In this document: positions 43,283-47,737 of the stretch, one piece after another | Layout: each line of letters starts with the position of its first letter | Position numbering within the stretch: position 1 is the stretch's first letter | Source of the DNA: Alicyclobacillus sendaiensis NBRC 100866 | GTDB taxonomy: Bacteria > Bacillota > Bacilli > Alicyclobacillales > Alicyclobacillaceae | Direction: 5' to 3' | Length of the DNA stretch: 64,000 nt | Assembly: GCF_001552675.1 (NCBI RefSeq) | Contig: NZ_BCRQ01000008.1 | Span: forward strand, 1-64,000 | Program-made: the position numbers and the translations under genes | Notes under the pieces: generated by a model | Database searches by the model: none | The model's input: only the letters and a program-made list of their open reading frames with translations | Told to the model about the DNA's origin: nothing

Positions 43283-44131
43283 TCACGTGGAGGATGGATC
43301 TCCGTGGAGCTTGCTCCGCAACACGCCAAAAAACTCGCGATCCGGCAAGCGCACGAGCGTCGCTTGGAACGGAGCCTTCCGCACCAATACCTCGTCTCCG
43401 GCGAGAAGCCGCATGCCCTCCTGCCCGTCCACCGCGAGTTCCACATCCCCGTGCCGCGCATGCACGGAAAGCCGCACCCACGAGGAGGCATCGATCACGC
43501 AGGGTCTGGAAAACAGCGTGTGCGGGCACACCGGCGTCAGGACCATCACCTGCAAATGCGGACTCACGATGGGGCCTCCGCAGGACAGCGAGTAGGCGGT
43601 GGATCCTGTGGGTGTCGCGACAATCACGCCGTCACCCGTGTAGGTGTCGACGTACACGTCGTCCACGTGGACGTCGAGCGTGACCATGCGCGCAAACGAG
43701 CCTTTGCCCACGCCCACGTCGTTGAGCGCCGTGAAACGCGCGATCTCGCGTAGATCCCGATACACGAACGCCTCGAGCATCAGGCGAGTCTCCAGGTTGT
43801 ACTCCCCCGCCATGATGCGCTCGAGCGCAATCTCCAGTTGCGAAGGTTCCGACTCCGTTAAAAACCCGAGGTGGCCAATGTTGACGCCAAACATGGGGAC
43901 ATGAAACGGCGACAACTGGCGGGCCACGCCGAGCAGCGTGCCGTCTCCACCGAGCACGATGACGAGTTCACAGGATTTCAGCTCTGGGTGCGTCTCGACA
44001 ATGGCGGTGTCGTGGTCGATCGGCACATCGACGACGCGAACCCCTGTTCGTTCCAACTGCCGGAAGATGTCGGTCCGCACCGAGCACGCTTCCTGCTTGT
44101 GCACATTGTACAACAGGCCTATTTGGCGCAA
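43283..44131 (-). CDS. nadK: NAD kinase NadK
   Basis: This is a 282-residue ATP-NAD kinase that makes NADP+. The catalytic GGDGTLLGVAR is near residue 60, GVNIGHLGFLTE follows, and the NAD-contact segment TPTGSTAYSLSCGGPIV near residue 180. TTG 44129-44131 follows GGGGGAGG. It lies between tlyA's small downstream gene and recN. No argR homologue is present in this block. Confidence 0.96.
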   Translation of the reverse strand: MRQIGLLYNVHKQEACSVRTDIFRQLERTGVRVVDVPIDHDTAIVETHPELKSCELVIVLGGDGTLLGVARQLSPFHVPMFGVNIGHLGFLTESEPSQLEIALERIMAGEYNLETRLMLEAFVYRDLREIARFTALNDVGVGKGSFARMVTLDVHVDDVYVDTYTGDGVIVATPTGSTAYSLSCGGPIVSPHLQVMVLTPVCPHTLFSRPCVIDASSWVRLSVHARHGDVELAVDGQEGMRLLAGDEVLVRKAPFQATLVRLPDREFFGVLRSKLHGDPSST

Positions 44132-44146
44132 CGTCCTCCCCCATCC

Positions 44147-44647
44147 TCAGCCGTGCTTCCACGCGACAAGTGCCACCAGCGCGCCGCCAAGCGCCCACAG
44201 GGCGCGACGAACCGCTTCTTTGCGCCGAACATGGCGCGGGCGGTGCCACTCGTACAGCGCGGTCTGGACGGACTCCTGCATCACATCGATGACGATCACG
44301 CCGCTCGCTCCGTGCAGCAAAGCGACCAATGCATACCGCTCATGCAGCGCTTCCTCCGGGACCGGCTCCGTGCGAACAAAAACAGCATACTCCCGCCCTT
44401 CTTTGCGCGCAATGAAGTCCGGGCGAAGCGATCCGGACCATCGAGCGGATGCCGTCCGGGTCACGTGGGTGACCCCTTCGCTGTGGGGGACGAGCTCGTA
44501 CCCGTTCGCCTCGAGCCACCGCCGCCCCATGGTCTTGAGCCCCTCCACAGGAACCTCTTCGTTCCGATGCCACAGCGCCCCGGCGAGCGATCGGAGCCCT
44601 ATGGCCATCGCCGCGAGGGCGCACGCCAGCGCAAGCGTTGAGATCAT
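44147..44647 (-). CDS. Membrane protein with degenerate PDDEXK-like core (166 aa)
   Basis: This 166-residue protein has an N-terminal hydrophobic segment (about 2-20) and a second at the C-terminus (about 147-163). Between them the pattern MGRRWLEANGYEL, then SLRPDFIARKEGREYAVFVRTE recalls the PDDEXK nuclease core (PD...E-x-K). The usual Lys is Arg here (VFVRT), so activity may be lost. ATG 44645-44647 overlaps the tlyA stop as ATGA. Function unknown; the fold call is an inference from pattern only. Confidence 0.7.
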   Translation of the reverse strand: MISTLALACALAAMAIGLRSLAGALWHRNEEVPVEGLKTMGRRWLEANGYELVPHSEGVTHVTRTASARWSGSLRPDFIARKEGREYAVFVRTEPVPEEALHERYALVALLHGASGVIVIDVMQESVQTALYEWHRPRHVRRKEAVRRALWALGGALVALVAWKHG

Positions 44648-45483
44648 GCCGTGCCCCCGTTCGGGTCCGTGCCGCTCTTCAGGCGGGCCCATGCGGCCTC
44701 GACGATGTGCCTGCTCTCCGCCATCCACCGCATGGTCTCGTCGGCATCCGGATGCATGCGGAACCAACCCAGGAACTCGACGTTTCCGTCTCCCCCGGTG
44801 ATGGGAGAATACGTCAGCCCGCGGCAGCACCAACCCATGGACTCGATACTCTTCAGGATGTCCAGGAGCACGGCCCGATGAACCTCCGGATCGCGCACAA
44901 TGCCGCCTTTGCCCACGCGATCCCGCCCGGCCTCGAACTGAGGTTTGATGAGCGACACGATGTCGGCGTCGCTGCGGCAGACCTCGGATAGTTTGGGGAA
45001 CAGGAGGCGAATAGAGATGAAGGACACGTCCATCACCGCGAGATCTGGCCGCGGGTCAAATCGCAGCGGGTCGACGTGACGAAAGTTGGTGCGCTCCATC
45101 ACGCGAACCCGCTCGTCCTGGCGCAGCCGCCACGCGAGCTGGCCGTAGCCCACGTCGACCGCGTAGACCAACCGGGCTCCGCGCTGCAAGAGGCAATCGG
45201 TGAACCCGCCCGTCGACGCCCCGACGTCGACCGCGACGCGATCGTCCACGCGGATGCCGAATGTGTCGAGCGCGTGCTCTAACTTCAGCCCGCCGCGCGA
45301 CGCGTACTCGCGTCTCGGCCGCTCCACCTCGACGCGCGCCTCGTCCGCGACCCGCAAGCCCGGCTTGTCGGCGCGCACGCCGTCCACGCGCACGAGTCCG
45401 GCCATAATGGCGCGCCTGGCCGCTTCCCGGCTCGCAAAAAGCCCCCTCGACACCAACAGGAGATCCAGTCTCGTCTTCGTCAT
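44644..45483 (-). CDS. tlyA: TlyA-family rRNA methyltransferase
   Basis: This 279-residue protein has an N-terminal S4 RNA-binding domain (RLDLLLVSRGLFASREAARRAIMAGLVRVDG) and an FtsJ-like methyltransferase with VAVDVGASTGGFTDCLLQRGA, VYAVDVGYGQLAW and PDLAVMDVSFIS. The family (B. subtilis YqxC) is between dxs and ahrC. Here oapA is upstream, overlapping as ATGA. TlyA of mycobacteria makes 2'-O-methylcytidine in rRNA; specificity here is inferred. Confidence 0.94.
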   Translation of the reverse strand: MTKTRLDLLLVSRGLFASREAARRAIMAGLVRVDGVRADKPGLRVADEARVEVERPRREYASRGGLKLEHALDTFGIRVDDRVAVDVGASTGGFTDCLLQRGARLVYAVDVGYGQLAWRLRQDERVRVMERTNFRHVDPLRFDPRPDLAVMDVSFISIRLLFPKLSEVCRSDADIVSLIKPQFEAGRDRVGKGGIVRDPEVHRAVLLDILKSIESMGWCCRGLTYSPITGGDGNVEFLGWFRMHPDADETMRWMAESRHIVEAAWARLKSGTDPNGGTA

Positions 45484-46079
45484 CCGTCCCGCCCCCGATC
45501 CGCCCGCCGCCTTTGCGACGGCGCGCGTCGACCCCACAGCACGGCGAACGACTCCCACACGCGCGCAGCAAACAAGATGATGGGCGTCGGGGAGTGAATG
45601 GCGATGGTCTTTCCGATGGCTTTCCCGCCCACCGTGAGCGCCGTGATGACCGCCGTGATACCGATGCGAAGCGCCTCCGGGGCCCACCCGTGCGCCTGAA
45701 TGGCCTGGATTACCTGAGCGCTCACGGCAAGAGCGCCCGCACCGCTCAAGACGCCGGCGATATCGCCGATCACGTCGCTGCACACGCTCGAGACCTTCTC
45801 CGCGTTGCGCACAATGACAATGGCGCGGCGCGCGCCAAACACCCGCTTGGCCGCCATCGCGTGAAAGGGCGTCTCCCGCGCAGCCGCGGCCGCCATGCCG
45901 AGCATATCAAACAAGGCCCCCACCAGGACAATCACGACCACGATGGACGCCCCGATGTACCAGCGGGCCGAATTCAGAAAAATGGTCGAGGTATCGAAAA
46001 CCGCACTGATGGGCAAGGTCAGTGCGGCAATCGTCAGCGCAAACGCGTAATTTGCGGTTTTCGAAGTCGTCTTTCTCAC
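45480..46079 (-). CDS. oapA: OLE-associated protein OapA
   Basis: This 199-residue protein with about four hydrophobic segments (about 9-30, 40-62, 108-130, 136-156) lies directly downstream of a large structured non-coding region. Position between ispA and tlyA, size, membrane topology and the central segment VSSVCSDVIGDIAGVLSGAGAL fit OapA. In extremophilic Firmicutes OapA binds OLE RNA and keeps it at the membrane. GTG 46077-46079 is chosen with GGGAG 6 nt upstream; ATG 46118 has no ribosome site. Confidence 0.85.
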   Translation of the reverse strand: MRKTTSKTANYAFALTIAALTLPISAVFDTSTIFLNSARWYIGASIVVVIVLVGALFDMLGMAAAAARETPFHAMAAKRVFGARRAIVIVRNAEKVSSVCSDVIGDIAGVLSGAGALAVSAQVIQAIQAHGWAPEALRIGITAVITALTVGGKAIGKTIAIHSPTPIILFAARVWESFAVLWGRRAPSQRRRADRGRDG

Positions 46080-46129
46080 GCGCGCTCCCTCGGCGCGCCG
46101 CAGGACCGCGGCCGCCATTCGTGTATGTA

Positions 46130-46753
46130 TCGATGCCCGGGTGGCAACTCCCTGAGTAAACGCTGTGGCTTAGGTCCAGTAGGTTTTCCCAAGCGCTCAC
46201 CGAGACGTCGCCGTCCCGGCGGTTTCCCTTTCAGAGCGCCTTGGCCGCGTCGCCGACAGCCAGACTGGATTACCACTTAGTCCACACTATAATCCTCAGG
46301 GAGCCTCGCCTCGTGGCGAACAGTCTAGGCGTTTTCCGCGACAACCGCTCCCGCGCCCTAGCCTCTTTTGCAGTACGGATTTCACCCAGCACCGGTGGTC
46401 GCGCCGTGGCCGCGGCCGACCACCTGAATTCCTGGGATCCTTCAGTACCACTCAAGGCAGGCTACGCTGCACACAGATTGCCTCCGCATGCAGGTTCATA
46501 CCCCAAGCCATAGCAAAAACCATGGTTCCAGCTACGAACTTGGGCCTCCGCGAAGGCTGGGTCACGTCCCGCATGCCATTGCGGGCTGCCCAACCTTCTT
46601 AACTCCCAGCATGAGCCCAGGGCTGGGCGCCCCAAGCCCACACCAGGAACTTCATCGATGTGCCCTTTGACGGATTTTTAGCCCCGTCTTCAGGCGCGGA
46701 CGGTTGACTAGAATACTGCGCCACCCGCAGGGACGTTTCGTCGGACTGCGCTC
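46130..46753 (-). ncRNA. ole: OLE RNA (ornate large extremophilic RNA)
   Basis: A stretch of about 750 nt between ispA and oapA has no plausible gene, but dense self-complementarity. Examples are the 8-bp stem 46394-46401/46417-46424, and a stem 46568-46573/46580-46585 enclosed by 46555-46561/46589-46595. A TATAAT with TG one base upstream places the 5' end near 46753. From there to shortly before oapA is about 620 nt, matching the about 610-nt OLE RNA of Bacillus halodurans and relatives. That RNA is encoded at the same place, upstream of oapA. The exact 3' end is not visible. OLE-OapA complexes are linked to alcohol, cold and Mg2+ stress responses. Confidence 0.85.
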
Positions 46754-46759
46754 AACGTC

Positions 46760-46768
46760 ATTATACCA
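46760..46768 (-). promoter_or_regulatory. Extended -10 promoter of the OLE RNA
   Basis: TGGTATAAT is on the minus strand, 65 nt after the ispA stop codon. A recognisable -35 is lacking. It would start transcription near 46753, separating the RNA from read-through of ispA. Confidence 0.6.
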
Positions 46769-46831: not shown

Positions 46832-47710
46832 TCACCGGTCCCGCTCCACGATGAGCGCCTGGAGGACCTGCAGCGGTTCCGAGCGCACCCCAACCTGGGC
46901 CAACGCCTGCTCGCCGCGCCGGATGACGTCTTGTGCCATTTGGCGCGTCCTCTCCACGCCGACGAAACGTGGATAGGTCAGCTTCCCTTCCTCGACGTCC
47001 TTTCCGGCCGTCTTGCCGAGTTGCTCGGTCGACGCGGTCACGTCCAGCACGTCGTCGATCATCTGAAATGCCAAACCCAGGCACTCGCCGTAACATGAAA
47101 GCGACTGCCGCACCTGATCGTCGAGATCGGCAAAATAGCCTCCAATCTCGACACACGCCTGGATGAGCCGAGCCGTCTTGTGGAGGTGAATGAATTCGAC
47201 GTCCTGAAGGGTCCCCTGCCCCCCCGTGCGCTCGATGTCGACGGCCTGTCCGCCCACCATGCCGTCCACGCCGGCCCGCGAAGCCAATGTGCGGATCATC
47301 GCCAACTGCCTCTCGGCTGGGACGCCTTCCAGCGGACGAGACAACAAATGGAAAGCCTCCGTCAAGAGCGCGTCCCCGGCCAAGAGCGCCATGGCCTCGC
47401 CAAAGACGACGTGGTTCGTCGGCTGTCCCCGCCGGAGATCGTCGTCGTCCATGCACGGAAGGTCGTCGTGAATCAGCGAATAACAATGAATGAGCTCCAC
47501 CGCAGCGGCGGCGGGCAGCACGCGATCCCTCGGCACACCAAAGGTCTCGGCCGTCGCGATGACGAGCGCCGGGCGGAGTCGCTTGCCGTCGGCCATCAGG
47601 CTGTACTTCATCGCTTCCTTTAGCCGAGCGTGAAGGCCCGTCGGTTCGAACAAGCGCGCGAGAAAGTCGTTGACCGCCGCCTTGCACGCCTCGAGGTACG
47701 TCTGCAACAC
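46832..47710 (-). CDS. ispA: Farnesyl diphosphate synthase IspA
   Basis: This is a 292-residue trans-prenyltransferase. First Asp-rich motif DDLPCMDDDDLRRG (first DDxxD with extra residues) is near residue 85, KTARLIQ near 180 and the second FQMIDDVLDVT near 225. GTG 47708-47710 is preferred, with GGGGGTG just upstream; GTG 47714-47716 abuts that site. It follows xseB by 27 nt. In B. subtilis dxs follows; here OLE RNA and oapA follow. Confidence 0.95.
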   Translation of the reverse strand: MLQTYLEACKAAVNDFLARLFEPTGLHARLKEAMKYSLMADGKRLRPALVIATAETFGVPRDRVLPAAAAVELIHCYSLIHDDLPCMDDDDLRRGQPTNHVVFGEAMALLAGDALLTEAFHLLSRPLEGVPAERQLAMIRTLASRAGVDGMVGGQAVDIERTGGQGTLQDVEFIHLHKTARLIQACVEIGGYFADLDDQVRQSLSCYGECLGLAFQMIDDVLDVTASTEQLGKTAGKDVEEGKLTYPRFVGVERTRQMAQDVIRRGEQALAQVGVRSEPLQVLQALIVERDR

Positions 47711-47737
47711 ATCCACCCCCGGATTGGCCAGCGCCGG

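Follow-up and report, generated by a model that had tools for sequence, protein, structure and literature searches.

An OLE RNA gene of the full-length type, with its protein partners, in an Alicyclobacillus genome

What occupies the non-coding stretch between ispA and oapA in Alicyclobacillus sendaiensis NBRC 100866? The question was put to a 64,000-nucleotide stretch of contig NZ_BCRQ01000008.1, called the window below. From the ispA stop (46832) to the oapA start (GTG 46079) the gap measures 752 nt, matching the roughly 750 nt of a first-pass annotation which had read there a structured RNA with many stems, proposed it to be OLE RNA and suggested a search with the Rfam OLE model. This search (cmscan) returned a match to RF01071 on the minus strand at 46740-46125 with 525 bits (E 3.2e-152), the gathering score being 50, and the alignment spans model positions 1-616, i.e. 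the model from end to end. The RNA does lie where it had been placed (46130-46768), but its extent has to be corrected to the minus strand, 46740-46125 by the Rfam model, with a core closed by helix P1 running from 46726 to 46139. No other Rfam family scores above threshold in the whole 64-kb window, and the genome search found one OLE copy only.

The ole gene (46125..46740, minus strand) keeps 151 of the 158 mapped Rfam pairs canonical, while shuffled sequences average 61.5 and never exceed 78. The helices P7, P8 and P9 of the full-length type are all present as window helices 197-239, 248-274 and 283-380, the three labels being assigned by order. Judged by sequence, 46740-46125 is a textbook OLE copy, of the full-length type and neither variant 1 nor variant 2; the kind of system is already known, and the locus is an ordinary OLE member. 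The many stems noticed at first are borne out by the minimum free energy of the region, -318.6 kcal/mol against -256.4 +/- 7.2 for dinucleotide-shuffled sequences (z = -8.6). This last value, the end-to-end Rfam match and the covariation over 88 relatives described below also bear on the idea of a coding gene or antisense feature whose fold would be a composition artefact of 60% G+C DNA; short ORFs of up to 97 aa do overlap the stretch, but the Rfam match and the covariation already refute this idea, and we give it practically no credence.

Covariation was assessed in an alignment of 88 OLE RNAs from Alicyclobacillaceae, Paenibacillus and other Bacillales, with slid controls in which the 3' partners were moved by one to three positions. 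Canonical pairs fill 90% of the base-pair cells (39-45% in the slid controls), and two-sided compensatory changes are seen in 104 of the 158 pairs (48-72 in the controls). At all 271 positions conserved in at least 95% of the 88 RNAs the window carries the majority base. A decayed, non-working OLE remnant, for which nothing was found, is scarcely conceivable given zero departures at these 271 positions, the 151/158 canonical pairs and an intact OapA. P1 and P3/P3.1, which are left out of the Rfam model, covary in the 88 RNAs as well. The 5' strand of P1 (GGGUGGC, 46720..46726, minus strand) forms seven covarying pairs with the 3' strand (GCCACCC, 46139..46145, minus strand); six of the seven are canonical in 88/88 RNAs and the remaining one in 78/88, with compensatory changes, and the helix corresponds to the published P1. 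On the same strand, CAACCG-U-CCGCGCCU (46692..46706) pairs with GGGCGCGG-GAG-CGGUUG (46342..46358). In RNA numbering, positions 35-40 of the window RNA pair with 394-399 (6 pairs) and 42-49 with 383-390 (8 pairs), all canonical and covarying in the alignment; from their position we infer that they are P3.1 and P3, respectively, of the published model (PMC12265935).

The sites at which partners bind in better studied OLE RNAs can be located too, all on the minus strand. The joining strand GCGGAGG beside P5, in the k-turn region (46545..46551), is found in 88/88 OLE RNAs; in Halalkalibacterium halodurans the k-turn region including a strand of this type is bound by OapC (PMC9723947, PMC12286853). 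The L9.3 loop has the self-complementary palindrome GGCC (46408..46411), which occupies the middle of the loop in the window as in each of the distinct loop sequences listed for its relatives, and which is the kissing loop joining the two RNAs of the OLE dimer (PMC12286853). The P12.2/P13 region (46191..46241) is a putative OapB-binding site by analogy with the role described for OapB there (PMC9723947); its helices 500-507/543-550 and 521-529/534-542 are paired in 99% and 92%, respectively, and mostly covary in the 88 RNAs.

At the 5' side of the RNA the first-pass annotation had pointed to an extended -10 promoter with a 5' end near 46753. The element TGGTATAAT can be read at 46768-46760 (minus strand), and its position predicts the same start. 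An equivalent TGnTATAAT element (at least 5/6 matches) is present upstream of ole in 39/39 Alicyclobacillaceae loci, against a mean of 1.4 and a maximum of 5 in shuffles; a -35/-10 consensus scan found no sigma-70 site with a recognisable -35 at ole. As far as sequence conservation can tell, the extended -10 promoter of ole is real. The spacing between the -10 and P1 is variable, giving leaders of about 14 to 55 nt within the family, and the leader is therefore not conserved. A 5' leader hairpin (34 nt in the window, -10.7 kcal/mol) was considered as an extra structural element and rejected, neither its length nor its fold being conserved in close relatives.

A terminator search of the minus strand between ole and oapA gave nothing, and processing therefore probably generates the 3' end, as has been reported in H. 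halodurans. This lack of a terminator, together with an OLE end about 46 nt upstream of the oapA GTG, would also suit a long structured, riboswitch-like 5' leader which controls translation of oapA with no independent RNA. We consider this very unlikely: the window has a complete OLE in which the sites for the dimer and the proteins are conserved, Pullulanibacillus camelliae has OLE on one contig and an oapA copy on another, and the OLE of H. halodurans is a processed, abundant RNA (PMC9723947).

The four-TM protein expected downstream is encoded by oapA (46079-45480, minus strand; 199 aa, 20.9 kDa), a CNNM-like membrane protein with a helical model and four hydrophobic regions. Its start is most likely, from the sequence context, the GTG at 46079 behind the ribosome-binding site GAGGGAG (46091-46085) and not the ATG at 46118 which opens the longest ORF; this ATG has no evident ribosome-binding site, and the same arrangement is seen in the near relative A. 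fructus. The Pfam CNNM match lies below its cut-off (19.9 vs 28.4 bits). With the AlphaFold model (pLDDT 84), the only high-probability Foldseek matches are CNNM/CorC Mg2+ transporters, among them MtCorB (7m1t) and CorC (7cff), at probability 1.00 with weak E-values (best 0.015). The downstream protein is OapA, with a predicted CNNM-like fold. With 199 aa and a sub-threshold CNNM match only, it is not a full MpfA/CNNM exporter, which has a CNNM domain, a CBS pair and a CorC_HlyC domain. Both aspartates of its SDVIGD motif are invariant in 32/32 aligned sequences and, judged by spacing alone, resemble D100/D104, the two residues mutated in H. halodurans (PMC9723947).

The surrounding gene order folD-xseA-xseB-ispA-ole-oapA is the known order of the OLE cluster. 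The upstream neighbour (46832..47716, minus strand) is an ispA-type farnesyl diphosphate synthase gene (NF045485, 344 bits, above cut-off), and downstream a tlyA-family rRNA methyltransferase gene (44644..45483, minus strand; TIGR00478, 275 bits) overlaps the oapA stop. The original identification as OLE RNA holds on the 525-bit end-to-end match, the OapA gene that follows, the place in the operon and the promoter dedicated to ole. The gene after oapA is tlyA in the window (46079-44644) and a dxs-like ORF in another locus (L021), so that dxs seems gone from the cluster in the lineage of the window. A 228-aa ORF (44147-44833, minus strand) with no Pfam match even at E 1 lies between tlyA and the gene for NAD kinase (43283-44131); judged by eye, it possibly encodes a small membrane-anchored protein.

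The OapA of the window shares 95% identity with its A. mali counterpart and 91% with the A. fructus one, which places the genome in Alicyclobacillus. OLE is present in 40 of the 41 Alicyclobacillaceae genomes searched. In the exception (G025) only about 100 nt separate oapA from the end of its contig and the DNA upstream is absent; ole was probably lost in assembly, and this genome was dropped as a candidate for lacking OLE. No OLE match was found on phages or plasmids. In the open-access literature searched, no paper was found that names OLE RNA together with Alicyclobacillus. Two unusual arrangements were observed in passing. In Pullulanibacillus camelliae (L064 and G041:C6:152-756) an oapA has no OLE within 3 kb upstream, and the only OLE of the genome (505 bits) lies near the start of a different contig; either ole and oapA are separated there or this is a second oapA copy, and the arrangement is unusual because the two genes are nearly always adjacent. 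In Paenibacillus sp. NAIST15-1 (L109:2609-2979) the OLE match covers 371 nt only (238 bits) with most of the middle absent, while related Paenibacillus have OLEs of about 650 nt; the short one reflects either a natural deletion or a mistake of assembly.

Genes for the partner proteins were located by targeted searches of the genome. The gene for OapB was found in 38/41 genomes of the family. Here it sits between adk and infA, and its product, a basic protein of 111 aa (pI 10.1) with no export signal apparent by eye, matches 'OLE-associated protein B' (PDB 7k9b, E 1.8e-17). OapC/YbxF is encoded between rpoC and rpsL, and bS21 is encoded in the genome as well. MpfA, a competing Mg2+ exporter, is absent: OapA is the only CNNM match in the genome, in which no CorC_HlyC domain was found, and MpfA is likewise missing from 36/41 family genomes. 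An absence of MpfA is a statistical tendency of the OLE complex, and its lack here fits the reported anticorrelation of the two (PMC11332333). A CorC_HlyC protein of MpfA size occurs in 5/41 family genomes (G004, G007, G008, G013 and G029), all of which bear OLE, so both systems can coexist.

Taken as a whole, this is almost certainly an ole gene of Alicyclobacillus whose transcript would fold as OLE and form, with OapA, OapB, OapC and bS21, a particle at the membrane replacing MpfA-type proteins. No feature of the sequence speaks against this reading. For the transcript, the dimer, the binding, the membrane location and the stress role we rely on the work in H. halodurans and Clostridium. RNA polymerase would start near 46753 from the conserved extended -10, and transcription from the ispA operon probably runs on through ole-oapA as well. 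The ole transcript, about 600 nt long, would fold into the OLE structure, pair with a second copy via the conserved A-rich P4 loop and the L9.3 GGCC, and bind the four-helix membrane protein OapA, the product of the next gene, with OapB, OapC and bS21 docking on their conserved sites. At the membrane the particle may stand in for MpfA-type proteins in the adaptation to Mg2+ and to stress in general. OLE ranks with the largest and best conserved RNAs of bacteria that lack a known biochemical function, so genetic settings which constrain models of it are useful.

One such model was proposed in 2025: P3 of each OLE RNA would cross the membrane, with domain 1 in the cytoplasm and domain 2 outside with OapB, in the periplasm (PMC12265935). 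A word search of the text of that paper for 'acidophil', 'acidic', 'thermoph' and 'low pH' found none of them. The thermoacidophile A. mali is cultured at pH 4 and 55 C (PMC8060452), so an external RNA domain would there meet acid and heat. What can be added here is that the conserved single-stranded bases of domain 2 are almost identical in Alicyclobacillaceae and in other OLEs, including those of alkaliphiles. Unpaired sites at least 97% conserved outside Alicyclobacillaceae were counted as kept when at least 97% conserved within them, and with domain boundaries set by us domain 2 keeps 61 of its 65 sites and domain 1 keeps 78 of 94. A or C, the bases which protonate near pH 4, stands at 35 of the 65 domain 2 sites. 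Compared with three species that we presume to be alkaliphiles from their names and general knowledge (Natronobacillus azotifigens, Halolactibacillus alkaliphilus and Amphibacillus sediminis), identity at unpaired sites is 82-84% in domain 2 and 75-77% in domain 1. The alignment gives no sign of an adaptation of domain 2 to acid, in a comparison where not every member of the Alicyclobacillaceae is a strong acidophile.

Domain 2, if it does face the medium, must fold unchanged from about pH 4 to about pH 10. That the P3 crossing fails in acidophiles, domain 2 staying in the near-neutral cytoplasm, is an explanation we regard as quite conceivable without favouring it; the alternative, a domain 2 which is outside and folds across that pH range, would be equally striking. 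The cell wall may buffer an external domain 2 against acid, and the conservation of domain 2 may reflect its function. OLE in an acid- and heat-loving bacterium is a natural test of the membrane-spanning proposal, and conservation alone does not decide the question; with domain 2 bases nearly identical and a thermoacidophile host, the genus can be used to test the model.

Among known systems, the locus shares its RNA family from end to end with the OLE of H. halodurans, which works with OapA, OapB and OapC (PMC9723947, PMC12265935). Both have oapA directly 3' in a cluster of fundamental genes, a promoter of their own and genes for the three protein partners; the binding of OapA at the membrane and the stress phenotype on deletion are known from H. 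halodurans (PMC9723947, PMC12265935). H. halodurans is an alkaliphile, whereas the host of the window comes from a thermoacidophile lineage; the 5' leader differs as well (about 14 to 55 nt from promoter to P1 in the family of the window), and the OLE stems of Alicyclobacillaceae are richer in G+C, which makes up 65-67% of their paired bases where other Bacillales have 53-55%. We know of no structure of an Alicyclobacillus OLE. The OLE dimer of Clostridium acetobutylicum was solved by cryo-EM (PMC12286853), and the window keeps its L9.3 palindrome GGCC, its A-rich P4 loop and its k-turn strand. The CNNM membrane fold predicted for OapA is that of the MpfA/CNNM-CorC Mg2+ exporters, but unlike them OapA has neither a CBS nor a CorC_HlyC domain.
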